From contig JAUWMR010000006.1 of assembly GCA_030613055.1 (NCBI GenBank), positions 1 to 64,000 of the forward strand: a stretch of DNA of 64,000 bases. Direction: 5' to 3'. Shown piece by piece: positions 17,864 through 46,497 of the stretch (position 1 is its first letter; every line of letters starts with the position of its first letter). The stretch is from Desulfobacteraceae bacterium (GTDB lineage: Bacteria; Desulfobacterota; DSM-4660; Desulfatiglandales; Desulfatiglandaceae). Both the position numbers and the translations under genes were made by a program. The notes under the pieces were generated by a model. The model was not told the origin of the DNA and made no database searches. It saw nothing but the letters and a program-made list of their open reading frames with translations.

Positions 17864-18286
17864 ATGAAATGCTTATCGATGCAAATAGCAGTTGTTTTAG
17901 CCGCTGTGTTTTTCCTGTCAGCATGCGCTGTGAAACGACCGGTTCTCTATCCAAACCAGCAGCTTAAGCAGGTAGGTAGTGAAGCTGCGCAGGCCGATAT
18001 TGACGAATGTATAAGACTCGCTTCCGAGCATGGCGCGAATTCGAAGGCCGGAGAGAAGGTTGCGAAACGAACTGTAGTAGGCGCGGCAATAGGAGCTGCT
18101 ACAGGGGCTGCGGTTGGCGCGGTTTTAGGTCATGCAGGACGCGGAGCTGCTGTAGGTGCGGCAGGAGGAGGGGCTGGAGGCCTGATGACAGGGCTTTTCA
18201 GCTCCCGTGAGCCTGATCCGGTATTTCGCCGTTTTGTGGAGAAGTGTCTTCGAAAAAAGGGACATGAGCCGGTTGGGTGGCGTTAG
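17864..18286 (+). CDS. Glycine-zipper lipoprotein
   Basis: 140 residues from the ATG at 17864, preceded by GGAGGTG. A signal peptide ends in the lipobox LSAC (Cys21). Residues about 70-105 (VVGAAIGAATGAAVGAVLG...) form a glycine-zipper helix as in many envelope lipoproteins of the SlyB/OmpA-linker type. Two further Cys (about 48 and 129) lie in the mature part. It is likely lipid-anchored in the outer membrane. It is 30 bp after the preceding gene and may be cotranscribed. Confidence 0.8.
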   Translation: MKCLSMQIAVVLAAVFFLSACAVKRPVLYPNQQLKQVGSEAAQADIDECIRLASEHGANSKAGEKVAKRTVVGAAIGAATGAAVGAVLGHAGRGAAVGAAGGGAGGLMTGLFSSREPDPVFRRFVEKCLRKKGHEPVGWR

Positions 18287-18444
18287 TCAGTGCTATTCAT
18301 ACCTTCCTGAAATATATTTCCGTAATTCCTCATGATTCTCGGTGATCAGGAAACATGCCGTTAGCCGGGAACGTCTGGTAATGATTTAGACTAACCAATG
18401 CTGATCCAGATTCAATGAAAGGGTAGGTTCTCCTCAGGTCTTTC

Positions 18445-18486
18445 ATTTGACAAGCCTTGTCGCGCGACTTCAGGCTGTTGTCAAAT
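18445..18486. repeat. Inverted repeat ATTTGACAA...TTGTCAAAT
   Basis: ATTTGACAA (18445-18453) and TTGTCAAAT (18478-18486) are perfect complements, reinforced by inner GCCT/AGGC. It could be a hairpin ending the upstream transcript or a distant operator for the sigma-54 promoter 440 bp away. Confidence 0.45.
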
Positions 18487-18868
18487 TCAGAAGTTCTGCC
18501 TGGTAATGGATATTCAATCCTGATCTTTCATGCCTGATGTCTCAACCGTTTCACCGACTTTGGCCGAAATGACCGGCTTTCAGCAGTAACAGATATCTGA
18601 CCTGTTAAGCAGGTGCGGGTTTGACGGGAAATAAGGTCTGCTTCGCAGTGATACTGGGGCGTAAGCCTGGTTTCAGCGTAGAAAAGTGGGGAGAAACGCG
18701 ATTTCTGTGTTGAATAATCCGGCAATGTTTTAAGTCTCCAAAAACAGATGTAAAAAGGGTGAAAAGCTTGGGAAAAACCATACGTAGTCAGGAAAATTGT
18801 AGGATAATTCATCAGTTTCCGGTCTTTCACCAAAAGGCCTTTCCGGATTTATGTTCCATAATAAAAAG

Positions 18869-18888
18869 GATAAATCTCATGATTTATC
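18869..18888 (+). promoter_or_regulatory. Candidate activator-binding dyad upstream of the sigma-54 promoter
   Basis: GATAAATC, TCAT, GATTTATC is a perfect 8-bp dyad centred about 48 bp upstream of the -24 element, roughly -75 from the expected transcription start. That suits an NtrC-type enhancer-binding protein. The activator encoded at 21534-22877 is the obvious candidate, but this is inference from proximity. Confidence 0.4.
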
Positions 18889-18925
18889 AAATACTTAATC
18901 ATTTTTTTGGCAGGCGTTTTTTAAA

Positions 18926-18941
18926 TGGCACACACCTTGCT
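18926..18941 (+). promoter_or_regulatory. Sigma-54 (RpoN) promoter for the H-protein-like operon
   Basis: TGGCACACACCTTGCT matches the consensus TGGCAC-N5-TTGCW at every defined position, with the invariant GG and GC correctly spaced. It lies 40 bp before the start at 18981 in the right orientation. Transcription should require an AAA+ activator, and one is encoded just downstream on the other strand. Confidence 0.88.
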
Positions 18942-18980
18942 CTAACTTACAGCTAACTAAATGTAAAAGGAGTAAATGAA

Positions 18981-19979
18981 ATGGCAAAAAAAAATAGAGA
19001 AGGTAAAAGGAGTAAAATCGGGTATGGTTCTTCTTACCGGATGGGTGGAGACAAGGATCTGGCAGCCAAATCTGAAATACCGACCGTCCTGGGAGGTCAG
19101 GTTTGGATGGTGAAACCGGACAAGCGCGCCGAAACGGTCAATCCCTGTATCTGGATGCAGGCGGGAGTAGTGGAATTCAAAAATTGCAACAATTTCTATG
19201 ATTGCACGACATGTAAATACGATTCAGGGATGCTCAAGATGGTGGAGAAGGGTAAACAGATCAGCTGGCAGGATGCCATGAGAAAAAGGACAAGCCTGGA
19301 GAGGATCTGCAGGCACAGTTTGACCCATCGAATCGAGAAAAGGGCGTGTGCCTACAATTATGAGTGTTCCAAATGCGATTTTGATCAATTTTTTGAGGAT
19401 GTATGGACCGCAAAAACCAAAAACCCTCCTGGTGAAGTTCAAGAGATCAAGGGTTTTGAGGTCCCGGTGGGCCACTATTTTCATAATGGGCATTCCTGGG
19501 CGCGAATTGAAAGCGGAGGTTATATTCGAATAGGAATGGATGACTTTGCCCTGAAGCTCCTGGGAAAGGCGGATGCCTTTGACCTTCCCCTTATGGGAAA
19601 GGAATTGGGTAAAAACAATGTTGGTTGGGGCCTAAGGCGAATGGAAAATCGAGCTGACGTGCTTTCCCCGGTTGATGGGGTCATCATGGAAGTAAATTCC
19701 AAAGTTAGAGAGAACGCTGAACTGGTCAACCGGAAGCCTTATGAAGACGGCTGGTTATTTATGATTCAAAACCCCGATATTAAGGGTGCAGTTAAAGGAC
19801 TTATGGCTTACACCGAGGGACTGGAGTGGATGAACAGTGAAGTGGATCGGCTGGAGAACATGATAGAAGAAGTGGCCGGCCCCCTGGCCGCGGACGGTGG
19901 TTTTCTGGGGGAAGATATATATGGAAGTCTCCCTGATCTTGGCTGGAAAAATCTGACAAAGACTTTCCTCAGAACCTGA
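18981..19979 (+). CDS. Cys-rich protein with C-terminal H-protein-like (GcvH fold) domain lacking the lipoyl lysine
   Basis: 332 residues. The N-terminal half has two cysteine clusters (starting at CIWMQAGVV, with DCTTCKYD, and the second with YECSKCDFDQ), suggesting two metal-binding sites. Residues from about 155 (VPVGHYFHNGHSWARIE) through DVLSPVDGVIMEVNSKV and ELVNRKPYEDGWLF follow glycine cleavage H protein closely. Where H proteins carry the lipoylated lysine (ESVKA), this protein reads RRMEN, so the lysine is replaced by Glu. It cannot act as a normal lipoyl carrier. Expressed from the sigma-54 promoter, coupled to a paralogue. Role unknown. Confidence 0.75.
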   Translation: MAKKNREGKRSKIGYGSSYRMGGDKDLAAKSEIPTVLGGQVWMVKPDKRAETVNPCIWMQAGVVEFKNCNNFYDCTTCKYDSGMLKMVEKGKQISWQDAMRKRTSLERICRHSLTHRIEKRACAYNYECSKCDFDQFFEDVWTAKTKNPPGEVQEIKGFEVPVGHYFHNGHSWARIESGGYIRIGMDDFALKLLGKADAFDLPLMGKELGKNNVGWGLRRMENRADVLSPVDGVIMEVNSKVRENAELVNRKPYEDGWLFMIQNPDIKGAVKGLMAYTEGLEWMNSEVDRLENMIEEVAGPLAADGGFLGEDIYGSLPDLGWKNLTKTFLRT

Positions 19980-20956
19980 TGCGGGTGTCCCTTAGTTTTG
20001 GTATTAATATGGGTTGCGGGGGTAACATGGAAACATCAAATCGTTTGGAGAACCGATCAGAAGGGGAACCAAGTCCCTGCATATGGATGCAGGCAGGTGT
20101 GGTTCGGCGAAAGTTCTGCCTTAACGACTACTACTGCATGGCGTGTAACTTTGACAGGATCATGGCACGTGTCGCTGAGGAGAACAAGAGGCTAAGAAAG
20201 GCAGGCAAGGTTTTGCAGGGAAAGAGAGGCAAGATAGTTTCCTGGAAGGACAGGCTTAAGGAATATCCTCCCTGGAAAAGGCCGTGTCTTCACCACCTGA
20301 AAGGTCGCATTGAATTCAGGGCATGTAACCATGAATATTTCTGCAGTGACTGTGAGTTTGATCAGTATTTTCATGACCAATATACGGTCCATGCCGTAGT
20401 TACGCCGGTTGAAGTTCTCGAGGCTGAAGGATTCAGTTTCCCCCAGGGATATTATTTTCATTGTGGTCATACATGGGTAAAGATTGAAGAAAGTCATTCG
20501 GTCAGGGTGGGAATGGATGATTTCGCCTTACGGATACTAGGTCCCCTCGACAGTATCGAGGTCCCGCTTATTGGAAAGGAAGTACAACAGGGCCGGGCTG
20601 ATATCTCGGTGTTCCGGGGCATTAACCGGGCAAAGGTTCTTTCGCCTGTAAGCGGAGTTGTCACATCGATAAACTCACGCCTTAGGGATAAGGGAGGTCT
20701 AGCCAATAAAGATCCCTTCTCAGGCGGCTGGGTCATGAGGGTTCACGCTGAGAATCTACGTCAAGATCTGAAAAACCTCATGATCGACACCGAAACCAGG
20801 GATTTTTTGATAGAAGAGGCAGATCGGCTTTATCAGGTCATAGAGGAGGTGGAAGGACCTTTGGGCACCGACGGTGGTTACCTGTACGACGACGTCTATG
20901 GAAGTATGCCGCAACTTGGCTGGGAGCGGCTGACCAAGCTTTTTTTTCGTACCTGA
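19979..20956 (+). CDS. Second Cys-rich H-protein-like protein lacking the lipoyl lysine
   Basis: 325 residues, paralogous along its whole length to the preceding gene, with the same CIWMQAGVV opening, two Cys clusters (YYCMACNFD; YFCSDCEFDQ) and an H-protein-like C-terminal half (FPQGYYFHCGHTWVKIE, KVLSPVSGVVTSINSRL). The position of the lipoyl lysine is Ile (FRGIN). The ATG at 19979 overlaps the upstream stop (TGATG); an in-frame ATG at 20027 after GCGGGGGTAAC is an alternative start. The tandem pair probably forms a heteromer. Divergence from the first copy argues against a recent duplication. Confidence 0.73.
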   Translation: MRVSLSFGINMGCGGNMETSNRLENRSEGEPSPCIWMQAGVVRRKFCLNDYYCMACNFDRIMARVAEENKRLRKAGKVLQGKRGKIVSWKDRLKEYPPWKRPCLHHLKGRIEFRACNHEYFCSDCEFDQYFHDQYTVHAVVTPVEVLEAEGFSFPQGYYFHCGHTWVKIEESHSVRVGMDDFALRILGPLDSIEVPLIGKEVQQGRADISVFRGINRAKVLSPVSGVVTSINSRLRDKGGLANKDPFSGGWVMRVHAENLRQDLKNLMIDTETRDFLIEEADRLYQVIEEVEGPLGTDGGYLYDDVYGSMPQLGWERLTKLFFRT

Positions 20957-20964
20957 AAAAACAA

Positions 20965-21537
20965 TTACACATTTCTTGATTTGTTCTTCAGCCTTTTTAA
21001 TTCGTCTTCCAAAAGGACACTACAGTAACGGCAGAGTTGATTTCTTTTTCTGTCCACATCTTTCACCGTGCGGCAGTAATGCATGATGCAGGATCGATCT
21101 CGACAATGTCGAAGATTAAAGGTGTGCCCCAGTTCGTGAATGGCTTCTTTGATAACCCGGCAAGGGTATACCTCATGGCTGTTTAAGGGAGAAAGGGACT
21201 CTTTCAAACGATACGTGGATATGATGCATGCCTTTCCCCCTAATTGGGCTTCCCCGTACACGTGGGTAAGAATGGGGATAAAGAGATCCACCTTGGCTAT
21301 GGCAAGCACTTTGGCCGCGCGGTAAGGGATGTTACGGACAAGTTCGTCCAGTATAGGAGTGGAATGGTACTGGTTGCGTCCCGGGTCCAGGGCAAAGTCG
21401 ACTTCGTCAAGTATCGGAATGATTTCAGTTGGGTAGCCGAATATGTTATATATCGCCCTCCTGACCCGATTTAGGAGGTTTGTGTCCGGATTCCCAATGG
21501 GAGAAATAATGATTGTATGTTTTTTTAGGTCACTCAA
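20965..21537 (-). CDS. amzA: Archaemetzincin-type zinc protease
   Basis: 190 residues. The metal-binding motif [12 protein letters not shown] (134-145) is followed by C150, M152, Y154 and the CRYC pair (169-172), matching the archaemetzincin pattern in which a second zinc is held by cysteines. The usual Gly of HExxHxxG is Asn141 here. Archaemetzincins are small cytoplasmic metalloproteases of unknown physiological role. It overlaps the response-regulator gene by 4 bp, so it is the last gene of the kinase-regulator operon. Convergent with the H-protein-like gene, only 8 bp apart. Confidence 0.85.
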
Positions 21538-22877
21538 GCCGGCTTGTTAATTTTATAACGTTTGATTTTACTGTAAAGAGTGGAACGATCAATGTTCAGG
21601 ATTTCCGAACTCCTGGATATATTCCATCGATTTTCATTAAGGATGCGGGCAATATGAATCCTTTCAACATTCTTAATGGAGTCATCGGGGGCCGCTTTTA
21701 TATTTTCAGGATGAAATATAGGTAGATCTTCGGGCTGTATACTTCGGCTCTTTCCCACAACCACGGCCCTTTCAATTGCGTTTGCCAGTTCTCGAACGTT
21801 CCCCGGCCACTCATAGAGCATCATTTCATCTATAGCCTCGCGACTGATTTTGTCTACCCTTTTATTGGTTTCCTGGGAAAAATGGCGGAGAAAGAGTCCG
21901 GAAAGCAGGGGTATATCCTCTTTTCGGTCACGAAGACGTGGCATTGTAAAAGAGATTACATTTAGCCGGTAATAGATATCTTCCCTGAAAGTCCTTTGTT
22001 TGATGGCCTCCTCAAGATTTTTGTTTGTGGCTGCAATAACCCTAAAATCCGCCTCTATAGGCTGTGTGCCGCCGACCCGGTAAAAGACGTGGTCTTCAAG
22101 AAGGCGCAGAAGATCGATCTGCATTCTCATGCTGATTTCGCCGATTTCATCTAAAAAAAGTGTCCCTCCGTGGGCTAGTTCCAGCCGGCCTTTCTTGGTG
22201 GCTATGGCGTCGGTAAAGGCTCCTTTCTGGTGGCCGAAGAGTTCACTTTCCAGCAGGTGCTCAGGGAAAGCGCCGCAATTGATCACTACAAAAGGGCCAT
22301 CGCGGCGAGGGCTGTTTGTGTGAATGGCCTTTGCCGCCAACCCCTTGCCCGTCCCGGTCTCTCCGTTGATCAGGACGGTCGACTCAGTAGGGGCTATGTC
22401 CTGAATAAGATCAAAAATTTCCTGCATTGCCCGGGATTGGCCGACCATGTTCTCAAAACGGGTCCTGTCATCGTACTGGGTTTTCAGAAACAGGTTTTCC
22501 AGGGCCTGCGCCTGGTGTAAAATAATCTTTTCGATAAGCATGCCCAACTCATCAGGGTCAAAGGGTTTAAGCAGGTAGTCATAGGCCCCGTTTTTTATCG
22601 CCTCAATTGCCGTTGAAATAGAGCCATAGGCAGTGATCATGATTACTTCAACATCAGGGTCGTTTTCCTTGACTTGCTTCAATAACTCAAGTCCGCTCAT
22701 TCCTTCCATTTTGATATCGACGAGGAGTATATCAAAGCGAATGTCTTCTAATTTTTTCAGTGCCTTCTCGGCGCTTGGCGCCTTTTCTACATAGTGACCG
22801 TCCCGTTCAAGCCAGCCGGCGAGAGACTCCCGCATAATCAGTTCATCATCGACAATAAGGATTTTAGTGCTGCTCAT
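21534..22877 (-). CDS. NtrC-family sigma-54 response regulator
   Basis: 447 residues from the ATG at 22877, which has a GGAGG site; the in-frame start at 22889 is less likely. Receiver domain 1-120 with phospho-acceptor Asp in LLVDIKM near 53; AAA+ domain with Walker A GETGTGKG and Walker B LFLDEIGE; Fis-type helix-turn-helix at the end ([21 protein letters not shown]). The sigma-54 contact loop reads GAFTDA rather than GAFTGA, a known natural variant. Overlaps the kinase gene upstream. Likely activates the sigma-54 promoter at 18926. Confidence 0.93.
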
Positions 22878-24441
22878 GTGAACCTCCAACCGGATCGGGT
22901 GTCCCCGGTGGTTGTTTTAGTGGAAGCATGACCCTGAGGGTTGTGCCTTTACCCAACTCAGAGTCGACACTGATAGAACCGCCATGTTCCTCAACGATGC
23001 CGTAAGCCACTGAAAACCCTAACCCCACTCCTTTGCCGTTCTTTTTTGTGGTGTAAAAGGGTTCGAAGAGTTTGGAAAAATTTTCGCGGGAGATGCCTAT
23101 ACCGCTATCCTCAAAGCTGACCACGATCATATTTTTTTTGGTGGAATATCCGGTTTCTATACGCAGCACACCACCCCCGGGGACCTCCATGGCCTCGACC
23201 GCGTTAGAGATAAAGTTCATAAAAACCTGTTGAAGCTGGTCTTCCGAACCGACGAGGTCCGGAAGATTTTGATTTAAGCGTGTATCAACCTTTATACCAT
23301 TTATTTTAAGGAGATTTGAATTTAAAAACAGCGTTTTTTCAATGAGTCGGTTAAGATCAACACGCTTAAATCCCATTTTTGATTGTCGGGAAAAGGCTAG
23401 GAGGCTGGATATAATTCGGCTAATTCGTCTGATCTCAGTCTCCATAAGGTTCAGGTATTCGCTGAACTGCTCAATTTCCTTTTGATTGACTGAACCCTCG
23501 TCAATAATCCGCTTGATCAACATGATGAGATTCAATGTGCCCGCAATGGGATTATTGATTTCATGTACAACCGAGGCTGATAATTTGCCCAGGGAGGCCA
23601 TCTTGTCCTGATGAATCAGTTTGGCACTGGTTTCCTTCAATTGTAAAGTTCGTTCCTCAACCATCTTTTCAAGACGACGGGTGATCTGCTCTTCCTGTTT
23701 TTTTCGATCCGTAATATTCCTGCTGATCTCTATGAGTTTTGAAATTTTGCCGTCTTCTTCCCAGATAGGATAGACGGTTACTTCAACATAACGCCGCTCC
23801 CCATCGGAGGCTACCCAGGTCCGGACCTGCTGGCTGGGCCTTCTGTTGATTATCGCCTCGTGCAAGGGACAGATAATACCCTCTCCATCACACGGTTGTT
23901 CAGTTTTCTGGAAGATTTCGTAGCATTTACGGCCGATTACCTCATCGCGGGAGTAACCAATCTTTTCTTGAAATGCGGCGTTGACATCGATAATTTTCCT
24001 GTCAGGGGTAATAACCAGGATAAAATCCTGGATGGCATTCAGGATGGTCTCCATTTCCTCGGTTCTTACCCTTAACTTGTGTTCTTGCAAACTAATGGCT
24101 CTCCAGAAAAGATTAAAGACGTGGTAGGAGAGGACGCGAATATTCAACGGCCTGGTCTTTAAAATGTCGTCGAGGATATGCTGTTCCGGAATGAGAATGA
24201 TAATAAGGTGTATGTTATGGCGGGGGTTATATAGCTTGTGATAGTCATTGACGGTTATCATGCCCAGTTTCCTGCCAAGGACCATCCCAGGCGATTGAGG
24301 ATCCGGATCGGCAACAGCAATAAAATGGGCATTTACAGGCTCTTTCCTGTATTGCAGTGCGGAACTCTCGATGATCTCTTTGCAGAAAGGAGTTCCGCCA
24401 ACGATACCAATGTTGATGAATGAAGGTTTTTTATCGAGCAT
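22864..24441 (-). CDS. Histidine kinase with N-terminal Rossmann-like domain and PAS domain
   Basis: About 525 residues from the ATG at 24441; an in-frame ATG at 24498 would add 19 and neither has a strong ribosome site. The N-terminus ([16 protein letters not shown], then [19 protein letters not shown], then [10 protein letters not shown]) looks like the first half of a nucleotide-binding Rossmann domain. A PAS domain follows (about 135-255) with Cys residues, then HisKA with VVHEINNP and a HATPase domain. There is no transmembrane segment, so it senses something in the cytoplasm. The same architecture recurs at 42022-43995. Cognate regulator is the downstream overlapping gene. Confidence 0.88.
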
Positions 24442-24561
24442 TGGATAAATTTCTTTTATGTATAGATAGGCTGCAATGCCAAAACCACATGGTGTCATGG
24501 CCGGTAGTATTTCTGCACATTGAGACTCAATTTTTGTTAAAAGACCAAGACATGGTTCCCA

Positions 24562-24807
24562 TTATATGAATACAACCGGTACTAAAAAAACCTGGCTGTT
24601 GTCCTTTTCTACAATGCTCTTGCCTGTATTCGGGCACTGAAAGTCATTATTGAGCAGGGACGCAATATCTGATGGAAGTTTTTTTCCAGCATATGCTTCA
24701 TCAATGCTCTGCTTATTTGCTGGACCATCTTCAAGCGTGATTCCCGTGCCAATGCGATGGACATCGAAACATTCATCGCAGAGAATGTATATATCATAAA
24801 CGCCCAT
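24562..24807 (-). CDS. Small CxxC protein at the end of operon I
   Basis: 81 residues: MGVYDIYILCDECFDVH at the start carries a CxxC, and a later FQCPNTGKS has another Cys. An AGGGG site lies before the start. Probably a small metal-binding or regulatory protein. It follows the ACT-domain gene by 65 bp on the same strand and is itself 120 bp before the kinase gene, so operon I may read through into the regulators. Family not recognised. Confidence 0.6.
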   Translation of the reverse strand: MGVYDIYILCDECFDVHRIGTGITLEDGPANKQSIDEAYAGKKLPSDIASLLNNDFQCPNTGKSIVEKDNSQVFLVPVVFI

Positions 24808-26442: not shown

Positions 26443-27375
26443 TCAACTAATATCCGGTCTTGGATAAAGACCGGTGCGCTCCACGATTTCAGGAACTTTG
26501 TCCTCCCATTCGATTGCCATAATATGAAATCCCTTCACGCCCTCGACCTCCTTGAGTCGCTGAATGGTTTCAACGCAGATGTTGATTCCTTCTTCGGCCT
26601 GATTTTCCTTGGGTACACCGCTCATGCGTTTGACTACGTCATCCGGCACATCCATGCCAGGGACACGGTTTTTCATATATTTGGCCATGCCAGCGGATTT
26701 AAAAGGTGTGACGCCTGCTAATATATAGACCTTTTCGTGAAGACCCCTATCGCAGGCCTGTTTCATCCAGAGTTCAAATTTTTCAAGGTTGTAGATACAC
26801 TGGGTCTGTATAAATTCGACTCCGGCTGCAATTTTTTTTGCCAATCGGGGTACGCGGATTTCAAAGGGATCGGCAAAAGGGTTTGCCGCGGCCCCAACAA
26901 ACATCTGCGGCGGTCGGTTGATATCATCCCCTCCTAAGAATTTTCCTTCATCCCTCATTTGCCTTACGGTCTGAATCAATTGAATGGAATCAATATCAAA
27001 GACATTCTGACCCTGGGGACAGTCACCAAAATTTTGATGGTCTCCTGAAAGACAGAGGATGTTATATATATCAAAAGATGCAGCCCCTAAGATATCGCTC
27101 TGCAGGGCGATACGGTTTCTGTCCCTGGTAACCATCTGCAGCGTCGGCTCAACTCCCATCTTTTTCAGGTGTATACAGGATGCCAGGCTACAAAGGCGGG
27201 TCACGGATGTCTGGTTATCCGTGATATTGATGGCATCTACATGATTCTTGATCATTTCTGCTTTTTTGGTTATATCCTCAGAATCGCTTCCCCTTGGCGG
27301 CCCGCATTCTGATGTGACTGCCATGTGTCCTGCCGAAAGAATTTTTTCCAGCTTGCTTGGTGTCTTCGTGCTCAT
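26443..27375 (-). CDS. metF: Methylenetetrahydrofolate reductase, catalytic subunit
   Basis: 310 residues of the MetF TIM-barrel family (SECGPPRGSD, MVTRDRNRIALQSDILGA, CLSGDHQNFGDCPQ, FIQTQCIYNLEKF). It reduces methylene- to methyl-tetrahydrofolate using FAD, the reaction linking the C1 branch to acetyl-CoA synthase in the Wood-Ljungdahl pathway. It overlaps metV by 4 bp. In acetogens MetF with MetV and Hdr/MvhD subunits forms a complex taking electrons from NADH or other low-potential donors; the same linkage here argues for that type rather than the NADPH enzyme of methionine synthesis. Confidence 0.9.
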   Translation of the reverse strand: MSTKTPSKLEKILSAGHMAVTSECGPPRGSDSEDITKKAEMIKNHVDAINITDNQTSVTRLCSLASCIHLKKMGVEPTLQMVTRDRNRIALQSDILGAASFDIYNILCLSGDHQNFGDCPQGQNVFDIDSIQLIQTVRQMRDEGKFLGGDDINRPPQMFVGAAANPFADPFEIRVPRLAKKIAAGVEFIQTQCIYNLEKFELWMKQACDRGLHEKVYILAGVTPFKSAGMAKYMKNRVPGMDVPDDVVKRMSGVPKENQAEEGINICVETIQRLKEVEGVKGFHIMAIEWEDKVPEIVERTGLYPRPDIS

Positions 27376-28040
27376 AGTCTCACATCCTCCCTCACCACTT
27401 TTCTGGGCCCGCCGGCTCGTTCTGTTGACCAGTCCTTGATAGGCATAATCTTTTCGTAATCATCAAGTCTATTTAATTCCTTAAGCCGATCAATAATCAA
27501 CTGCCAGGCACAGTCAAGATCCTTATTTATCTCGCATTTTCCTTTTGTTGATCCACCGCAAGGACCGTTTAAGAGCCTTTTTGCACACCGGGAAATGGGG
27601 CAGATTCCGGCTGTTTCTCCCAGGATACACTGTCCGCAAGCCTGGCAGCGTTCGCTCCAGACACCACGTTCTTCTGCCGCACCTAAAAAACAGGTGTTGA
27701 CTCCGGGAAATACCGGAGTGCTAAAGTATTTCTCGGCCATAAACTGGACACCAACACCGCAGGCCAGGGACAGGACTGCGTCATATTTATCGATTCTGTC
27801 TCGGATTTCTTCTAAGTATTCATGATCGCACTGTCGTTCCAGGGTAACTTCATCTATTTCCACCTTTTTCCCTTCATTTAAAAAGTACATGCGAAGGGCT
27901 GATGCCAAGATGCCGACCTCCTTTTTGCCACCGGCTTCACAGACGGTTACGCACTCATTACATCCTGCAATCAGGAGTTTTTTAAAATCCTTTACGTAGT
28001 CAATGATTTCCTCAACTGGCTTTTTCTCTGCAACAATCAT
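27372..28040 (-). CDS. metV: MetV-type iron-sulfur/zinc partner of MTHFR
   Basis: 222 residues of the methylene-tetrahydrofolate reductase C-terminal family, rich in cysteine: VACGC-like CNECVTVC near the start, then CQACGQC, CPISRCAK and LLNGPCGGSTKGKCE. A GGAGGTTACACCGC site precedes the ATG. MetV binds MetF and carries metal centres through which electrons from the HdrA/MvhD module reach the flavin. It is separated from the mvhD gene upstream by about 216 bp of AT-rich repeats, which is unusual in an otherwise tight operon. Confidence 0.88.
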   Translation of the reverse strand: MIVAEKKPVEEIIDYVKDFKKLLIAGCNECVTVCEAGGKKEVGILASALRMYFLNEGKKVEIDEVTLERQCDHEYLEEIRDRIDKYDAVLSLACGVGVQFMAEKYFSTPVFPGVNTCFLGAAEERGVWSERCQACGQCILGETAGICPISRCAKRLLNGPCGGSTKGKCEINKDLDCAWQLIIDRLKELNRLDDYEKIMPIKDWSTERAGGPRKVVREDVRL

Positions 28041-28256
28041 GCGGTGTAACCTCCTGTCGATTATCGTTTCGATTGAATATTGAATATTGAGTATTGAATA
28101 TTTGCGGAATCGCTTCGCTCAGTTTTTTTCAAGTAAACTTGCAAAATCTTTAAATCGTCAATTTGCAAAGTGTCCGGGCAATTGGTGCATTAATATGTGC
28201 TGAGCTGTAAATTTTTTAGCGCTGCCTCAATTTTCAATCGTCAATCGTCAATTTAT

Positions 28257-28688
28257 TCATGCCGCCATTTTCTCTTTGGCTTTTTTAAGCGGATTCGGGC
28301 CTAATTTCTTTATTTTTTCTGTCATTTCCACGGCATACTCTGCAAATCGAGGACCGTCAGCGGATGAAAGGTTATACATCTGTGCCCTTTCTCCACCGAT
28401 ACCAATGGCATCAAGGATCTGCTGGGCCTGCTCAATCCTTTTTTTAGCGCGGAGGTTGCCGTTACTGAAGCGACATTCACCTTCAAGACAGCCCACCACA
28501 TAAACACCGTCAGCCCCTTTTTCAAATGCACGCAGAATGTGAATGACATCCACCTTTCCGGTGCAGGGCAACCTGATAATCCTGATTGTGCCAGGATAAT
28601 TAATGCGCATGGAACCTGCCAGGTCCGCGGCGGTATATCCTCAGAAAATGCAGCAAAAGGCGACAATAATAGGCTCGAATTCTTTCAT
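28257..28688 (-). CDS. mvhD: MvhD-type iron-sulfur subunit, predicted selenoprotein (Sec16)
   Basis: 143 residues when the TGA at 28643-28641 is read through. From ATG 28688 the frame gives MKEFEPIIVAFCCIF-U-GYTAADLAGSM and runs on without change to TAA at 28257. Homologues, including the copy at 46093, have Cys where the UGA lies (FCCSNC). MvhD proteins carry a [2Fe-2S] cluster and pass electrons between HdrA and a partner. The later VGCLEGECRF motif keeps Cys here. A candidate SECIS hairpin follows the UGA. A conventional gene call would begin only at 28610 and lose the N-terminal cluster. Confidence 0.85.
28611..28626 (-). promoter_or_regulatory. Candidate SECIS hairpin of the mvhD gene at 28257
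   Basis: In the mRNA, 14 bases after the UGA, GGACCU pairs with AGGUUCC (one bulged U) around a GGC loop. Distance and the bulged U resemble bacterial SECIS elements read by SelB, though apical loops vary widely and no score was computed. Confidence 0.45.
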
Positions 28689-28776
28689 CACAATACTCCT
28701 TCCAGTTTCCTGTACATCGTGCTTCGTGAAATCAACAAACCCGATAAACTCAAATAACCCGACAAACTCAACAAAC

Positions 28777-31700
28777 TCATAGCACCCCTTCCAGTAATGC
28801 TTCGACTTTGCTCATGACCTGGTCATCCTCATACCAGTCTAATTCTATGGCCTTGGCCGGGCATTCGGCAGCACATATGCCGCACCCGTGACACAGGGCC
28901 ACATCAATTTCACTGACGCCTTCCTCATTTATACGGGGCACCTCATAAGGACAGGCCCTGACACAGACAAGGCACGCGGCACACAGATCCGGATCCACCC
29001 TGGCTGTCACCGCAGACAGGGTGATCTCTGACTGGGAGAGAAAAATGGTGGCCCTGGACGCCGCAGCAAGGGCCTGTGAGATGGCTTCTGATATCAGCTT
29101 GGGGCTGTGAGCCGTACCGCATAGGAAGACCCCTTCATTTGCCAGATCCACCGGTCTTAATTTGACGTGAGCCTCAATGAAATAGCCTTCTTCGTTTCTC
29201 GGTAGTTTTAGTATGGATGCCAATTCCTCCGTGTCTTCCGCCACCATGCCTGCGCTAAGGGCCAGGAGATCAGCGGTGATGCTAATATCCCGCTGAAGGA
29301 TATGATCCTTGAAGGTGACTGCAATGCCTTCATCTGTTGCCTCAACATTAGGAGGATTGTCCTGGCTGAAGCGGGAAAAGATGATGCCCTGTTGTCTGGC
29401 CTCTGTGTAGTAATCCTCTAACAGACCGTACATCCTCATGTCTCTATAGAGAATATAGATCTCGGCATCTGGATTGAATTCTTTTATATGAAGTGCGTTC
29501 TTGACAGCGCTCTGGCAGCATACACGGGAGCAGTTTTGGTTTTTTTCATTTCTGGAGCCCACGCACTGGATCATGACCACCTTGCTTATGTCATCGGCTC
29601 CTTTCACCTCCAGACGCTTTCCCAGTTCGATCTGGGTGACTACACGATAATCCTGTCCGTAGAGATATTCCTCGGGTTTGTATTCATTGGCACCAGTGGC
29701 TAAGATCACAACACCATGGTCGATTTTGCGTTCATACATGCCCGGGCCGACCATAATCTCAGTCGTAAAATTCCCTTTGAACCCGCTGAATCCTACGATA
29801 AGAGATTCAGTAAGAACCTGAATTTTTTCATGGCCTGTAACCCTGTCTACCAGTTCCAAGAGGTATCTTTGAATATCCGCGCCCTCAATAGTGACGGTCA
29901 GATCCCTGGAAAGACCGCCTAATTGTGCCTCCTTTTCCACGATCACCACGTCAAAGCCCTGGTCAGCAAGACCTAACGCGGCATTCATACCGGCCACGCC
30001 GCCGCCTATAACAAGGGCTCTCCGGTTGATGGAGATCTTTTTTTCCTTAAGGGGTTTTAACAGGCCCGCCCTTGCTACTGCCATTCGTACCAGGTCTTTG
30101 GCCTTTTCTGTGGCAGCCTCCGGATCATTGGCATGAACCCATGAATCCTGGTCGCGGATATTAGCCATCTCAAAAAGATATTTATTGAGGCCGCACGCCT
30201 GAAGGGTTTCCTGGAATAGAGGTTCATGGGTCCTTGGAGTACATGAAGCGACCACGACGCGGTTAAGGTTGTTTTCCTTGATAACCTCCTTCATCTTGTC
30301 CTGGGTGTCCTGAGAGCAGGTAAAGAGATTCTGATCCACAAAGACTACATATGGAAGGGTAGCGGCATAATCAGCCACGGCAGGAACGTCAACGACTCCG
30401 GCGATATTAATGCCACAGTTGCACACAAAAACGCCGATCCTTGTTTCTGTTTCTAAAACATCAATCTCTGCGGGTATCTCAATAGTCTTTGTATCCGTGC
30501 CCCTTGCCTCGGCAAGCTTTGTACCTGCAGCACAGGCTGCGGCGCTGGCCTCGGTCACGGAACCTGGAATATCCTTAGGTCCCTGAAATACACCACTGAC
30601 AAAGATACCTGGCCGCGAAGAGTTTACCGGGGCAAATGGATCGGTAACTGCAAAATTGTAATTATTCAATTCGATGTCAAGGCGCCTGGCTAAGGCAGTC
30701 ACTGATTCCGGAATTTGCAATCCAACAGACAGCACAACCATGCTGAAGGTCTCTTCATTGGTCTGGCCTGATTCGTCTGTGTATCTTATAACCAGGTCAC
30801 CGGTCGTGCTGTCCTCATTTATGGTGTGAACCCTGGACTTTATGAAGCGAACCCCGTGTTCGTCTTTTGCGCGGTTGTAATATTTTTCGTAGTCCTTTCC
30901 GAAACTTCTGATGTCCATATTGAATATGGCGCAATCAAGATCGTCATGAGAATGCTCCTTGGCAATCATGGCCTCCTTTACGGCATACATGCAACAAACA
31001 GAAGAGCAATACCCGTTACCACACAGATTGACGTCTCTTGATCCCACGCATTGAATCCAGGCGATTTTCTTGGGAGCTTCTCTATCCAGGGTTCTCATGA
31101 GATGACCACGATAAGGACCTGACGCACTTAAAATTCTTTCAAATTCCTCGCTGGTCACCACATTGGCAAATTTACCATAACCTAATACGTCCATCCCTGA
31201 CGGATCGAAACCCTCACTGCCCGGAGACAGGATCACTGCTCCAACGCAAATAGTGGATTTTTTCTCATTGTCTTCATAATTAATGGCCTTTGCGAGGCAC
31301 ATCATTTCACAGAGGCCGCAGCCTATGCATGTATCTATGTCAATGGCAAAGGCTAATGGCACTGCCTGCGGATATTCTATGTATGTGGCCTTTCTATCGT
31401 CTAATCCCAGATTATACATGTTAATCGCAGTGACAGGGCACCGTTTGGCGCATTCCCCGCAACCCGTGCACTTGATCGGGTCTATGTAACGAGGATAACT
31501 AGTCAGCGTAACCTTGAAATCGCCGGGCTCGCCTTCAATGCTTTCCACTTCAGTGTTCGTGATGATATTTATATTCAGATGCCGGCCGACCTCGACCAGT
31601 TTCGGCGAGATAACTCACATAGCACAGTCGTTGGTCGGAAAGGTTTTGTCCAGCCGGGCCATCATCCCACCGATACTCGGTGATCGTTCGACTAACTGGA

Positions 31701-31803
31701 CATAGTAACCCGAGTCGGCAAGGTCCAGGGCCGCCTGCATTCCTGCAATGCCCGCACCTATGACCATTACGGTTCCGCTCTTTGCGCCTTTGTTAGCTCC
31801 CAT
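28777..31803 (-). CDS. hdrA: HdrA-type flavin/iron-sulfur protein, predicted selenoprotein (Sec63)
   Basis: 1008 residues with the TGA at 31617-31615 read as Sec63 in [18 protein letters not shown]; Cys is usual at this spot in HdrA. Order: FAD-binding VIGAGIAGM (about 14-22), two [4Fe-4S] ferredoxin motifs ([12 protein letters not shown] 112-123; [11 protein letters not shown] 159-169), a second HdrA half with FVCNCG and GGGVAGM at about 600-606, and two C-terminal [4Fe-4S] motifs ([24 protein letters not shown]). HdrA is the flavin-based electron-bifurcating subunit of heterodisulfide reductase complexes. With MvhD and MetV/MetF it probably feeds MTHFR. HdrB and HdrC are absent. Confidence 0.9.
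31591..31609 (-). promoter_or_regulatory. Candidate SECIS hairpin of hdrA at 28777
   Basis: Five bases after the UGA the mRNA can fold CUCGCC with GGUCGAG (bulged U) around a GAAACU loop. The same structure occurs in the second Sec-HdrA. Both encode the same peptide, so conservation could also come from coding constraint. Confidence 0.35.
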
Positions 31804-31900
31804 ATTGACTCCTCTTGTGATAAAATCTGTAGGCGTTCACAGGTTCAAGGTTCACCGTTCAAGGTTATTGAAATCTATTTTATTATAACTACTCAACCAC

Positions 31901-32653
31901 TTAGCTTGCACTTTCAAATACCGGGATACCTTCACTGTGTCCCTTAAAGATGACCTGATTTGTTTTTTCCAGGTCTGAAATCAGGTAAGATATCTTGCCC
32001 AGTTGAAGTCCGGTGCGTTCGCTGATCTCTCTTACGGAAGTTGAACCTTCTTTTAGTGCAATATAGATCAGGTTTTTCTGGTATTCCCTTTTCAGCACGG
32101 CAGACAGGATCTCCTCAAATTGGCCTACATCCCACTTTCGGCCATAAACATCGCCCTTAGTGGTGAGAGAGACTTCCTTTCCAACTAACCATCGCAATGT
32201 TTCACTTTTCGCCGTCATTTCCGCTGCATCTAATTCCAGCGAAAAAGTCGTGGAATCAAGCTCGCCCTGGCCCCTTATGGACTCGGTGACCTCGGTCACT
32301 ATCTCAGCAAAGCGCTGGCCTTCCGCCGAGGAACACCATGCTAAGTGAAGCCTGTCTTTTCCAATGGTCGCAAGATCCAGAAGTTCCTGGGTGAGACGAA
32401 TCTTTTTTTCGGCTTGAACATTACCGTCCAGGTAATGGCAGTCACCAAAATGTCACCCGGAAACCAAAATCCCGTCCCACCCCGCCTTTAGTGCCTTAAT
32501 AATATATAACGGATCAACCCGGGCAGAGCACATGACCCTCAATGGCTTCACATTCGAAGGATATTGAAAGCGGGATACACCTGCCAGATCAGCGGCCGCA
32601 TAGGCACACCAGTTGCACAAAAACGCTAATATTTTTGGTTCGAATTTTTCCAT
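31901..32653 (-). CDS. mvhD: MvhD-type subunit fused to a winged-helix domain, predicted selenoprotein (Sec67)
   Basis: 250 residues, starting MEKFEPKILAFLCNWCAYAAADL 17 bp after the hdrA stop. The TGA at 32455-32453 is read as Sec67 in ILVSG-U-HFGDCHYLDGN; homologues have Cys here (AGCHPGDCHY). The frame then continues unbroken to 31901. Residues 1-140 are the MvhD [2Fe-2S] domain. Residues about 170-245 (LKREYQKNLIYIALKEGSTSVREISERTGLQLGKISYLISDLE) form a winged helix-turn-helix, unusual in this family and perhaps an interaction or regulatory element. A perfect 7-bp hairpin follows the UGA. Confidence 0.87.
32419..32437 (-). promoter_or_regulatory. Candidate SECIS hairpin of the mvhD fusion gene
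   Basis: Starting 15 bases after the UGA, CAUUACC and GGUAAUG form a perfect 7-bp stem with loop UGGAC. Position and loop size suit a bacterial SECIS, and this is the best-formed of the four hairpins. Confidence 0.55.
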
Positions 32654-32669
32654 GTTATTACCTGCCCTT

Positions 32670-35600
32670 TCATCTGACGGCAGAAACCGCCGCAAGTAGC
32701 TGGCGGTCCCTGAAATGAAGCATATCGATTGCCCCCTGAGGACAGGAGGACGCGCAAAGCCCGCAGCCCTTGCAGGACGCCGGCACGTTTTTCGCCCGAA
32801 AGCCCTTACCCTCGATTTCCTCCATGATAATCGCAACGAAATTACACACTTCAGCGCAAAGGCCACACCCGATACACTTTTCCGTATCCACCTGGGAGAC
32901 AAGGGGGGAAACCTTGATACATGGCTGTGAGAGAATAATCGCCGCTTTACTGGCCGCGGCCATAGCCTGGACAATGCTCTCGTCAATCGGTTTGGGATAG
33001 TGCGCCATTCCACAGACGAACAGCCCGTCGTTTGCAAAGTCCACTGGTCTTAACTTTGCATGGGCCTCTATGAAGAATTTATCATCGTCAATAGGAATCT
33101 TAAAATAGCCTGCAATATCCTCATGGCCTGTAGGCTCGATGGCCGTCGCCAGGTTAAGGAGATCGGCCTTAATCAAAAGCTCCCTCTGAAGCACGGGATC
33201 AAACACGCGGATATCAAGGCCTTCATCCGATTCCGTGACAATGGGCTTTTTGTCAATGGTGTACCGCACAAAGATAATTCCCATATCCCTCGCTTCCTGG
33301 TAAAGGGCCTCTTTCTCGCCGTAGGTCCTGATATCCCGGTACAAAATGAAGACATTTATTTCGGGGTTCTGTTCCTTGAAATTAACGGCCTGTCCAATAG
33401 AAGATGTGCAGCAGACCCTTGAGCAGTACGGCCTTTTATCATCCCTTGAACCCACGCACAGGATAAATACAACCGTCCTGGCATCCTTAATCCTGTTCGG
33501 TTCCTGTTCGAGATCATGCCAGCGTGTAACCCGGGGATTTTTGCCATAAAGGTATTCATCCGGACTTGAGGCATTGGCACCTGTTGCTATGATGCACACA
33601 CCGTGTTTTATCGTCCTTGTCTTTCCTCCTGTGAGGATATCTGTTTCAAAATTGCCGACAAATCCGGACGAACCTGTTACATCAGCATTTAAAAGGACTT
33701 CCACTATGGGATGTTGCTCGATCCTATCGATCAGGCCGGAAAGGTATTCGTGCACATCATTCCCCCTCCAGGTCTTTTTAATGTCCCTTGCAGCGCCTCC
33801 TAATGTATCTGATCTTTCAACAATGGTTGCGGGAAAACCTTGGTCAGCGAGACTTAGTGCGGCCGTCATTCCTGCAACACCGCCGCCAATAATCAGTCCG
33901 GACTTTTCGATATCCACCATCAGATCGGAAATAGGCTCCAGAAAAGAAGACTTCGCAACGGCCATCCTGACAAGATCCTTGGCCTTTTCAGTGGCTTCTT
34001 CTTTGTTATGGGAATGGACCCATGTACACTGATTCCGGATATTTGCCATTTCAAACAGGTTTTCGTTAAGGCCGGCATTACGAAGCGTCTCCCTGAACAG
34101 GGCCTCGTGGGTCGTTGGAGTGCAGGCCGCCACTACAATGCGGTTTAATTTATGTTCTTTTATTACCTCGACTATTTTTTCCTGGGTATCCTGGCTGCAT
34201 GTAAACAGGTTTTCATCAACGTTGACCACATTGGGAAGGGTCTTTGCGTACTCCGCAATGCCGGGAACATCTGCAAACCCACCGATATTATTGCCGCAGT
34301 TACAAACGAACACACCGACACGAGGTTCTTCACCGCTTATATCTTTTTCTTCTGGAAATACCTTTTCCTTTGTTGATTCTCCCCTCGATTGGGCCAGGCT
34401 AACAGATGATGCACAGGCGGCGGCACTGGCCTCAGTAACTGACTGGGGTATATCTTTGGTTCCCTGCAAGACGCCGGCAACATATATGCCGGGACGCGAA
34501 GTCATAACAGGCGAGAAGTCGTCCGTATTGACGAAGTTGTTTTTATTAAGGTCAACGCCTAATTTCCGGGACAGTTCCACTGCGGAGGGGTCCGGTTCCA
34601 TGCCGACCGAGAGCACAACAATATCAAACTCTTCTTCGTATATTTCGCCCGATTCTTCAACATAACCTATTTTTAAGGTGCCGTTGTCATCTGCTTCAGT
34701 GATGGAGTGCACCCTTGAACGTATAAAGCGGATTCCCTCTGACTTCGCACGCTCATAATACCTTTCAAAACCCTTTCCGTGCGAACGGATATCCATGTTG
34801 AAGATTGTGCCCGTAAAATCGCCACCCGTGTGCTCCTTGGCAATCAGTGCCTCTTTGATGGCATACATGCAGCACACCGATGAGCAATAGTCATTGCTGC
34901 AGTGGGCCGTATCCCTCGATCCGACACACTGGATCCAGGCTATTCTCTTTGGCTCCTTTTTGTCGGAAGGCCTGACGAGATGTCCCGATGTCGGACCGGT
35001 AGCACTCAAAAACCTTTCAAATTCCATGCTCGTAAGAACATTGGGATAGCTTTCGTGGTGATAAAGGTCTTCATAAGGGGCGGGATCGAAGACGTGGGTA
35101 CCAAGACATAGAATAGCAGAGCCTACCTCTATCTCGCGTTCAACCGGTTTCTGATTATGAATGACGGCTTCGGCTATACACGCTTCGACGCATTGGAAAC
35201 ATTCGCAGCAGTACCCGCAGTTCAGGCAACGGTGAGCTTCCTCTTTTCCCGTATCTTCGTCATAGCCTAATTCGACTTCCTTGAAATTGCCTTTTCTATC
35301 CTTTAGAGGAAGTTCCGGCATTTTTTCCCTGGCTTTTCCGGCGTTGTCTTCAGGAATCGGGCGATACACAGGATTTTCAGGTGTAACGGGCTCCCTTCCT
35401 TCCGCCATGTCCCTGCCATCCAGGAACCGGGCAATAGATTCGGCAGCCTCGCGGCCGGCGGCAATGGCACCAATGGCTACCCAGGGGCCGGTTTGCAGAT
35501 CGCCGCCGGCAAAAACAGCCTCCCTGTTAGTCGCATAAGTTACGGGATCTACGTCGGCGGTCCCCCAGCGTGAGAAAGCCAGGCCTTCCACATCCTCAAT

Positions 35601-37100
35601 AGCTGAAAGATCCGGCCTCTGGCCGATGGCCGGGACAAGTTGGTCAATCTCAATATCATATTCGCTCCCCGGGATTGGAATTGGCCGCCTTCTGCCGGAT
35701 GAATCGGTCTCGCCAAGCTTCATCCGGATGCATCGTATTCCCACGACCTTTCCGTCCTGGGTGAGGACCTCCTGGGGGGCGGCAAGATACGTTATTTTGA
35801 CCCCTTCTGCCTCTGCCGCCTGGATTTCATCTTCCCAGGCGGGCATCTCGGCACGACTTCGGCGATATATGATGCTGACCTCCTCGGCACCCAACCGGAC
35901 CGCGGAACGGGATACGTCGATGGCCACGTTTCCACCACCGATGATACCCACCTTTTTCCCCACGGGTGTTTTTCCGGACAGGTTCAGTTCTTTTAGAAAA
36001 TCGACTCCCTGGCGGACACCCCCGGCCCCCTCACCCGGAATGCCCAGCTCGATCCCCCTGTGCGCACCGACGGCCAGATAGACCGCCTTGTGGCCTTCTT
36101 TGAACAGGTCATCTACGGTCAATTGTGGACCGAGTGGTGTATTGACCTTTATCTCTACTCCGAGGTTGGTAATGATCTCTATCTCACGGTCAAGTATTTC
36201 CCTGGGAAGTCGGTGGTCCGGAATGCCCACACGCAGCATTCCCCCCGCCTCAGGAAGGGCTTCGAAAATGGTGGACAGAATTCCTTTGCGCGCTAAATGA
36301 TAGGCGGCGGAAAGCCCTGCGGGCCCCGAACCGACAATGGCCACCTTTTCTTCCCTTGGTGGCAGGCATTCAATTTTAATTTTGCGGGGATCAAACTGAT
36401 CCGCGGCAAGACGCTTAAGGTCCCTGATCGCTACAGGATTATCAACCTCACACCGGCGGCACGCATCCTCGCAACCGTGTGGACAAATCCTGCCGAGTAC
36501 ACCGGGAAGGGGCAGGTCTTCCATGATAATTTTAAGGGCGTCTTCGTATTTTCCCTGGCCGACCATCTGGACATATCCCTGGACGTTCAGGCCTGCGGGA
36601 CACGCCAGACTGCAGGGAGCCCTGTCTGTTTTTTGAATTGCATAGGCACCGGGTATGGCCTGCGCATAAAGCTTAAAAGCGGCCTTTCTGTTGGAAAGAC
36701 CCACATCGTATTCGTTGTCCAATTCAACGGGACAAACCTCGGCGCATTCTCCACAAGCGGTACATTTGTTAAGGTCGATATAGCGTGGTTTCTGTAACAC
36801 ACGCGCCTTAAAACTACCTACCTTACCTTTGAGATCCAGAAGTTCCGTATTAGTAAGAAGTTCTATGTTCAGGTGCCGGCCGACCTCGACCAGTTTAGGC
36901 GAGATAATTCACATGGCACAGTCGTTGGTGGGAAACGTCTTGTCTAATTGAGACATTACGCCACCAATGGCCGATGATTTTTCCAGGAGATATACGTAAT
37001 AGCCTGATTCTGCAAGGTCTAGAGCGGATTGCATACCAGCAATCCCTCCGCCCACTACCATAACGGACCCGGACAGCTTGTCGGATTTGCTTTTGGGCAT
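32670..37100 (-). CDS. hdrA: HdrA with inserted GltD/NfnB-like NAD(P)H module, predicted selenoprotein (Sec64)
   Basis: 1476 residues from ATG 37100 (AGAGGAAACAGAGTA site). The TGA at 36911-36909 is read as Sec64 in [18 protein letters not shown], where HdrA normally has Cys. After the first FAD motif and a ferredoxin motif ([12 protein letters not shown] 113-124), residues about 160-610 are a complete GltD/NfnB-like unit with N-terminal cysteines ([20 protein letters not shown]), FAD motif GSGPAG at 257-262 and a second dinucleotide motif GGGNVA near 390. HdrA then resumes, ending with two [4Fe-4S] motifs ([23 protein letters not shown]). The insert suggests direct NAD(P)H coupling. Confidence 0.9.
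36885..36903 (-). promoter_or_regulatory. Candidate SECIS hairpin of the HdrA-GltD fusion gene
   Basis: CUCGCC pairs with GGUCGAG (one bulged U) around a UAAACU loop, beginning five bases after the UGA, as in the other Sec-HdrA gene. Confidence 0.35.
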
Positions 37101-44462: not shown

Positions 44463-45395
44463 TTATACCTTGGGTCTGGGAAGGACACCCGCCATTTCAG
44501 CGATCTCGGGCACCCTGTGTTCCCATTCAATGGCCATGAGATGCACACCTGCAATTCCTTCCATTTCTTTGAATTCCTCAATCTGCTCCACGGCGAATTG
44601 GATGCCTTCTGCGGCAATCTTTCCTTTGCCAGCACTCCGTAAACGTTTGATTAAGGTATCCGGAACGTCCATTCCAGGCACCTGTTTGGCCATATACCGG
44701 GCCATACCAACGCTCTTCATGGGGGTGACGCCTGCCAGGATATAGCATTTCTCATGAAGTCCCATGTCAACGGCCCTTTTCATGAATTCCCTGAATCTAT
44801 CCATATTGTAGATACACTGTGTCTGGATAAAATCGGCTCCGGCTGCAATCTTTTTTGCAAGGCGGTAGACACGGAAATCAAAAGGTTCTGCAAAGGGATT
44901 GGAGGCTGCACCAATGAAGAGCTTAGGGGGTACATCGATTTTCTGCCCATTTAAAAATGTGCCCTCATCCCGCATGGTTTTTACGGTGTGGATCAACTGC
45001 ATGGAATCAATATCAAAGACATTTTTTGCATCAGGATGGTTGCCGAATTTCTGATGGTCGCCTGACAGGCAGAGCATATTCCTTATGCCATGGGAATAGA
45101 CCCCGAGGATGTCACTTTGTATGGCCAGACGATTGCGATCCCGGCATACCATTTGAAAATTGGGCTCAAGACCCTGTTCAAGGAGAATCAAAGAAGCGGC
45201 CCAACTGGACATGCGGACTACGGCTGTCTGGTTATCCGTAACATTTACGGCGTCTACATAACCTTTCAAATGACCGGCCTTCTCTACGAGGTGTTCAACG
45301 TTTGCACCCTGGGGAGGACCGCATTCACCTGTAAAGGCGAAATGGCCAGCCTTTAATACCTTTTCGAGATTGCTTCCTGATTTATACTCGCTCAT
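44463..45395 (-). CDS. metF: Methylenetetrahydrofolate reductase, second copy
   Basis: 310 residues, closely similar to the copy at 26443 ([83 protein letters not shown]). Same reaction and same 4-bp overlap with metV, but in a set whose HdrA and MvhD use only cysteine. Last gene of operon II, followed by a terminator. Confidence 0.9.
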   Translation of the reverse strand: MSEYKSGSNLEKVLKAGHFAFTGECGPPQGANVEHLVEKAGHLKGYVDAVNVTDNQTAVVRMSSWAASLILLEQGLEPNFQMVCRDRNRLAIQSDILGVYSHGIRNMLCLSGDHQKFGNHPDAKNVFDIDSMQLIHTVKTMRDEGTFLNGQKIDVPPKLFIGAASNPFAEPFDFRVYRLAKKIAAGADFIQTQCIYNMDRFREFMKRAVDMGLHEKCYILAGVTPMKSVGMARYMAKQVPGMDVPDTLIKRLRSAGKGKIAAEGIQFAVEQIEEFKEMEGIAGVHLMAIEWEHRVPEIAEMAGVLPRPKV

Positions 45396-46060
45396 TTTAC
45401 CAGTTCCTCCCTGGTCATCGTTCTTGGTCCGCCGTCCCGCGCCGTCATCCAGCTTTTAGGTGGCTTAAATTCAAGGAGTTCGTCAAGCCGGCCCTGTTCC
45501 ATCATCTTCCGCACAATGATATCCCAGATGCAGTCCACGTCCCCGGATATCTCACATTTCCCATTGTTTGATCCCCCGCATGGTCCATTGAGCAAGCTCT
45601 TGGAGCAACGGGCAATTGGACAGAGGCCGCCAAAGTAATGAACCACACAGGTACCACAGCCGGCACATCTCTCCGACCAGATGCCATGCTCAATCGCGCC
45701 GCCCATGAATCTGGTGTTGACGCCGGGAAACACCCTCGTTGCGGGATATCGTTCTGAGAGAAATTGCGGTCCAACACCGCAGGCAATGGATATAACGGCA
45801 TCATAGTCGTTGATAATGTCCTTGATTTCCTCAATATATTCGGGATCGCACTGGCGTTCTAAAGTTTCCTCTCCTATCTCGATTTCTTTGCCATTTTTCT
45901 TTGCGGCAATCCTCAAGGTAGAAGCCAGTATAGCCACTTCCTTGGAGCCGCCCACATTGCAGACCGTAACGCAGCCTTTGCATCCCACGATAAGGATTTT
46001 CTTGAGATCTCTGACCATCTCCAATATTTCTTTTATGGGTTTTGGTTCAGCAACAATCAT
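45392..46060 (-). CDS. metV: MetV-type partner of MTHFR, second copy
   Basis: 222 residues with the same cysteine pattern as the copy at 27372: GCKGCVTVC near the start, then CAGCGTC, CPIARCSK and LLNGPCGGSNNGKCE. It forms the electron-accepting and metal-binding partner of MetF. The gene is 32 bp after mvhD and overlaps metF by 4 bp. Confidence 0.88.
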   Translation of the reverse strand: MIVAEPKPIKEILEMVRDLKKILIVGCKGCVTVCNVGGSKEVAILASTLRIAAKKNGKEIEIGEETLERQCDPEYIEEIKDIINDYDAVISIACGVGPQFLSERYPATRVFPGVNTRFMGGAIEHGIWSERCAGCGTCVVHYFGGLCPIARCSKSLLNGPCGGSNNGKCEISGDVDCIWDIIVRKMMEQGRLDELLEFKPPKSWMTARDGGPRTMTREELVK

Positions 46061-46092
46061 TATATGTACCTCTCAGAATATCTATGTTTTCG

Positions 46093-46497
46093 TCACGGCA
46101 GGACAGGCCCTAATCCTTTGATTTTTCCTGTCATTTCGTGGGCCATTTCCACAAATTCCTGACCTTTACCGGCAGAGAGGTTAAAAACCTCTATTCTGTC
46201 CGGTTCGATTTCGAGTTCTTCTAAGATCTTTTTTACATGGGCCACCCTCTTGGCGGCCTTTGTTATCCCTGTGACGTACTGGCAACTATCTTCCTGGCAG
46301 CCGGCAACATAAACGCCGTCCGCCCCTTCCTCAAAGGGTTTTAAAAGATGCAGGACTTCAATACGGCCGGTACAGGGAACCTGGATTATTTTTACATTGC
46401 CCGGCATTGTCATTTTCATGCCCTCAGCCACGTTTGCTGCAGCCGAGGCGCAATTGGAGCAGCAAAAGGCAACGATTTGGGGTGTGTTGTCAGTCAT
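46093..46497 (-). CDS. mvhD: MvhD-type iron-sulfur subunit, cysteine form
   Basis: 134 residues starting MTDNTPQIVAFCCSNCASAAAN, with Cys exactly where the 28257 copy has the in-frame UGA. It also keeps Cys in VAGCQEDSCQY, where the 31901 copy has UGA. It is therefore a built-in reference for the selenocysteine reading. GGAGATGGAAAT precedes the start. It carries a [2Fe-2S] cluster and links HdrA to its partner. Confidence 0.9.
   Translation of the reverse strand: MTDNTPQIVAFCCSNCASAAANVAEGMKMTMPGNVKIIQVPCTGRIEVLHLLKPFEEGADGVYVAGCQEDSCQYVTGITKAAKRVAHVKKILEELEIEPDRIEVFNLSAGKGQEFVEMAHEMTGKIKGLGPVLP

Follow-up and report, generated by a model that had tools for sequence, protein, structure and literature searches.

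The H-protein fold is a known lipoate carrier. There is a known precedent for its working together with proteins of the Hdr-like kind: LbpA, which binds lipoate in the sHdr system of sulfur oxidation and in which the lipoyl lysine is strictly conserved (PMC6067878). The window analysed here, a stretch of 64,000 nucleotides from a Desulfobacteraceae bacterium, encodes two consecutive proteins, GLP-A and GLP-B, in which an H-protein domain follows two four-cysteine (Cys4) units and the lipoyl lysine is replaced (Table 1). The open reading frames, the domain, the lost lysine, the cysteine clusters, the promoter and the two-component system are all far beyond chance. As we discuss below, the reading we favour, with confidence somewhat short of even, is that GLP-A and GLP-B are non-lipoylated docking (adaptor) subunits with an H-protein fold, which would serve Hdr-type flavin/iron-sulfur electron-transfer enzymes and be induced on demand.

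Table 1. Features of the GLP locus, in window coordinates.
Feature	Position	Strand	Remarks
Probable response-regulator site 2	18708..18724	.	two mismatches to TGTWG-N7-CWACA; conserved distance
Probable response-regulator site 1	18798..18814	.	one mismatch to TGTWG-N7-CWACA
Sigma-54 -24/-12 promoter TGGCACACACCTTGCT	18926..18941	+	upstream of GLP-A
GLP-A	18981..19979	+	332 aa; two Cys4 units, lipoyl-less H-protein domain, conserved helical tail
Cys4 unit 1 of GLP-A	19146..19214	+	C56, C69, C75, C78
Cys4 unit 2 of GLP-A	19308..19376	+	C110, C123, C129, C132
Glu222 at lipoyl-lysine position of GLP-A	19644..19646	+	codon GAA; alignment, model
GLP-B	19979..20956	+	325 aa; same architecture as GLP-A
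Cys4 unit 1 of GLP-B	20078..20146	+	
Cys4 unit 2 of GLP-B	20285..20353	+	
Ile at lipoyl-lysine position of GLP-B	20621..20623	+	codon ATT; I199 of model
Archaemetzincin-type metalloprotease	20965..21537	-	HExxH...HC...C.M...C..C
Sigma-54-dependent response regulator	21534..22889	-	overlaps archaemetzincin gene by 4 bp
PAS histidine kinase	22864..24498	-	N-terminal Rossmann-like domain
HdrA with GltD-like domain	32670..36800	-	the HdrA most often found near GLP-A/B elsewhere

The C-terminal domains of GLP-A and GLP-B matched the H-protein family PF01597 (4e-21, 75.5 bits and 3e-21, 76 bits, respectively; cut-off 22.2 bits), and the solved structures nearest to their AlphaFold models (mean pLDDT 80.5 for GLP-A and 89.5 for GLP-B) were H proteins, with a TM-score of 0.90 to 1onl and only weak lipoyl/biotinyl-domain matches further down the Foldseek lists. 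The likely true start of GLP-B lies at 20027, preceded by a ribosome-binding-like GGGGG. We fixed the lipoyl-lysine column by alignment with the same genome's GcvH (contig C45, lysine present) and LbpA-like protein (contig C12), and this column holds glutamate in GLP-A and isoleucine in GLP-B. In the models, the strands of the lipoyl hairpin span residues 214-220/223-228 of GLP-A and 193-197/200-204 of GLP-B, and the hairpin tips are occupied by E222 and I199, with no substitute lysine there. The preliminary description had proposed the H-protein likeness and both substitutions, and had named another lysine at the lipoyl turn as the finding that would speak against it; alignment and modelling uphold the former, and the latter is not found because the modelled tips lack lysine in both proteins.

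Two lines of evidence make it well supported that GLP-A and GLP-B, as modelled, are unable to carry lipoate in the manner of H proteins. First, the lysine has been lost family-wide: across ~190 relatives the lipoyl position takes any residue, mostly Asp, Glu, Gly or Asn in type A and Glu, Gly, Ser or Asp in type B, with few lysines in either. Second, no lysine stands at the modelled turn. That lipoate sits on another lysine, so that the GLPs would still be lipoate carriers, is very improbable; a few homologues do have lysine at or near the site (5/89 for type A and 7/87 for type B), but the position varies freely and the hairpin tips of both models lack lysine. Moreover, we saw no lipoate-protein ligase gene among the window's open reading frames, whereas the LbpA-like gene of contig C12 has one next to it. 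The genome's true GcvH is encoded beside gcvT and gcvPA homologues, a setting that the GLP pair does not share.

The N-terminal half of each protein consists of two C-x12-C-x5-C-x2-C units, which correspond to the two cysteine clusters noted earlier, and all eight cysteines are invariant in ~190 homologues, wherever the N-terminal half is present. This invariance, set against the variable lipoyl position, argues that selection keeps the Cys4 units and not lipoylation, and it also makes metal binding by these units likely. The Cys4 half had no other match in the same genome, and sequence searches found no solved relative. We sorted the relatives into types A, B, C, D and E (names coined here) and more distant ones; D-type proteins at three loci have four Cys4 units, and single-unit forms also exist. 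Cys4 units occur in 70 of 345 genomes of Desulfobacterota, and a search of the open literature, which left out most subscription journals, found no description of the family. In an unrooted domain tree, the lysine-bearing GcvH and LbpA-like sequences cluster together with support of 99/96, separately from those without the lipoyl lysine. Matches with frames of ~590 aa were set aside as further GLPs, as the three such loci examined contain an ordinary gcvH adjoining gcvPA. The same genome encodes a third GLP on contig C65 (L041 7858-8883), which has glycine at the lipoyl position and its own archaemetzincin, sigma-54 regulator, kinase and HdrA. A lysine-bearing LbpA-like protein lies between redox-like open reading frames in another Desulfobacterota genome (L157 7047-7487); the far end of that locus may hold a lipoate ligase gene.

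Profile searches confirmed the regulator and kinase domains of the two-component system that the preliminary description placed next to the pair; no Rfam family was found within 18200-21600. Across 80 related contigs of Desulfobacterota, a recurrent order emerged in which GLP-A is followed by GLP-B, a convergent archaemetzincin, the sigma-54 regulator and the kinase, often with HdrA next. These 80 loci come from a set of 204 related loci that carries no claim of absence outside Desulfobacterota, and the counts treat related loci, many on short contigs, as independent. GLP-B follows GLP-A in 71 of the 72 loci with room for it, and the convergent archaemetzincin is present in 46/59, its gene and the regulator gene most frequently overlapping by 4 bp (a gap value of -3). 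An archaemetzincin gene also lies at most 6 kb from 64 of 86 GLP loci with Cys4 units (70 genomes), and its zinc and cysteine motif is kept in all 61 aligned copies. The preliminary description had suggested a survey for the pair beside hdrA operons, and this link is real, HdrA-type genes being present in 38 of 80 GLP-A loci, many of which end early at contig ends. The archaemetzincin and the sigma-54 regulator, however, are steadier GLP partners than hdrA. The N-terminal domain of the kinase is related to that of a second kinase in the window and, through it, to a kinase with an NAD_binding_3 match, a relationship that suggests NAD(H) sensing. The kinase at L139, an NrfD-type locus, differs in carrying a HAMP domain and lacking the Rossmann-like N-terminus.

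Upstream sequences link the GLP genes to this regulator. Counterparts of the sigma-54 promoter proposed earlier precede GLP-A in 62 of 78 loci, where 0.3 would be expected, and most C-type, D-type and more distant GLP operons are also preceded by a -24/-12 element, as are two MetF-like genes in the examined loci. None was found at the archaemetzincin, regulator, kinase, HdrA-GltD or GLP-B genes of these loci. In addition, the palindrome TGTWG-N7-CWACA occurs in 67/77 GLP-A upstream regions, compared with 2/77 shuffled ones, and most copies fall into two intervals, 100-140 and 200-240 bp upstream of the -24 element (~110 and ~210). Within 400 bp, it precedes GLP-A in 66/78 cases, HdrA-GltD in 2/40 and GLP-B in 1/80. 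These palindromes are likely binding sites of the adjacent regulator. A strict combined-pattern regulon search of 26 genomes returned two matches, both GLP-A promoters, and is weak because most true sites carry mismatches. A perfect TGTTG-N7-CTACA at window positions 24597-24613, ~100 bp ahead of the kinase gene, raised the prospect of autoregulation of the kinase operon, which we rejected since only 2/32 kinase upstream regions contain such a palindrome and it is thus not conserved.

Because the promoter and palindromes are found at GLP-A and not regularly elsewhere in the locus, the upstream sequences indicate that GLP-A and GLP-B are the dedicated output of the adjacent sigma-54 regulator. 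This arrangement bears on the earlier suggestion of a repurposed scaffold or a metal-dependent regulator, the first part of which fits the fusions described below and the second part of which lacks support, as the pair appears to be the regulator's target and domain profile searches found no DNA-binding or signalling domain in either protein. In a related reading, GLP-A and GLP-B would be metal or redox sensors that feed back on the kinase or archaemetzincin; the conserved linkage to kinase, regulator and protease and the likely metal-binding domain are in keeping with it, but given the same domain searches, the role as sigma-54 output and the fusion of relatives to enzyme subunits, we regard it as quite improbable.

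The strongest functional hint comes from fusions of GLP paralogues to redox subunits, whose domain content was checked with Pfam at one locus of each kind; none of the fused proteins is GLP-A or GLP-B itself. First, HdrA is fused to a GLP domain at four loci (L036, L037, L043 and L045). Second, a GLP-HdrC fusion is flanked by hdrA-like and hdrB-like genes (L143). Third, NuoEFG-like operons encode NuoG/HoxU-like proteins in which [2Fe-2S]/[4Fe-4S] domains precede Cys4 and GLP domains (L134-L138); at L135-L138 an indolepyruvate-oxidoreductase-like gene of ~1170 aa follows. Finally, membrane-anchored GLPs occur alongside NrfD and Fe-S subunits (L139, L140 and L147). A docking subunit appears to be the simplest reading of these architectures.

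The fusions also bear on two other explanations. In one, the Cys4 units hold Fe-S clusters and GLP-A and GLP-B are small ferredoxin-like electron carriers, whose H-protein domain serves only for docking on several enzymes. The Cys4 unit sits right behind [2Fe-2S] and [4Fe-4S] domains at L134 and L135, the GLP domain comes immediately after two ferredoxin clusters in the HdrA fusion, and the cysteines are all invariant, but their spacing matches no Pfam Fe-S family and resembles a zinc module equally well; we consider this explanation unlikely, although a serious contender. In the other, which we judge improbable, the GLPs would act as chaperones in the assembly of Hdr and similar enzymes, or supply them with metal, and would later be removed by the archaemetzincin, as on-demand expression, the protease partner and the Cys4 units might suggest; permanent fusion to HdrA, HdrC and NuoG-like subunits instead favours a lasting structural part.

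Within the window, HdrA genes lie 8-16 kb from the GLP pair with other genes between; this distance speaks against the docking reading, as do the presence of HdrA-type genes in no more than 38 of 80 GLP-A loci, within the limits set by contig ends, and the restriction of the fusions to paralogues. At 5-29 kb from the pair there are two gene sets of MetF, MetV and HdrA. These sets (26443-36800 and 44463-49328, the second with MvhD/FlpD) resemble the MetVF-HdrA methylenetetrahydrofolate reductase complexes of acetogens. An MvhD-like open reading frame at 32453-33037 ends ~70 residues into its domain, and this mvhD may be truncated or frameshifted. The GLPs could be tied to no single pathway in this way: nearly all relatives have the acetyl-CoA synthase family CdhC (CODH/ACS) with or without GLP-A, and its co-occurrence is therefore uninformative.

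If GLP-A and GLP-B are docking subunits, the system might operate as follows. The kinase, through its Rossmann-like and PAS sensor domains, would respond to a signal that may be NAD(H) and activate the adjacent sigma-54 regulator, which in turn would bind the paired palindromes and fire the GLP-A/B promoter. By analogy with lipoylated LbpA and the sHdr complex, the H-protein domain would then mediate protein-protein contact as a fixed module and dock on separately encoded HdrA-like partners. The two Cys4 units would hold metal, as structural zinc or as an Fe-S relay, and the archaemetzincin, encoded in the regulator's operon, would probably trim or remove the GLPs or their partners.

A broader proposal, which we put forward tentatively and think somewhat doubtful, is that Desulfobacterota possess a widespread and undescribed module: a non-lipoylated H-fold Cys4 subunit that would be exchanged between complexes of the Hdr, NADH-dehydrogenase and NrfD types. 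A dedicated switch, made up of a sigma-54 two-component system and an archaemetzincin and perhaps responsive to the NAD(H) state, would install and remove this subunit. If so, the H-protein fold would have turned into a docking part without cofactor that recurs in different redox complexes, and bacterial archaemetzincins would gain a genomic context and candidate partners. The energy metabolism of sulfate reducers would also become testable, since promoter and regulator are both clear and the output consists of two genes.

Among known systems, GcvH (PF01597, TIGR00527) shares the fold of the GLP C-terminal domain, but the GLPs lack the lipoyl lysine, have an additional Cys4 half and helical tail, lie outside the gcv operon, and score 72.4 (GLP-A) and 68.5 (GLP-B) with TIGR00527, below its cut-off of 115.85 bits. 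GcvH-L of Streptococcus pyogenes (5a35) is, like the GLPs, an H-protein-like side branch, but it matches them less closely in structure (TM 0.81-0.82), and its 112-residue chain has no Cys4 half. The GcvH-related protein NF045810 (Desulfo group) is likewise an H-like domain in sulfate reducers, although GLP-A and GLP-B score only 27.4 and 25.1 bits against its cut-off of 150. Unlike LbpA, the GLPs have neither the lipoyl lysine nor a ligase gene nearby; like LbpA, they have the H-protein fold and are associated with Hdr-like proteins, in their case through gene neighbourhood and the fusions of their paralogues.
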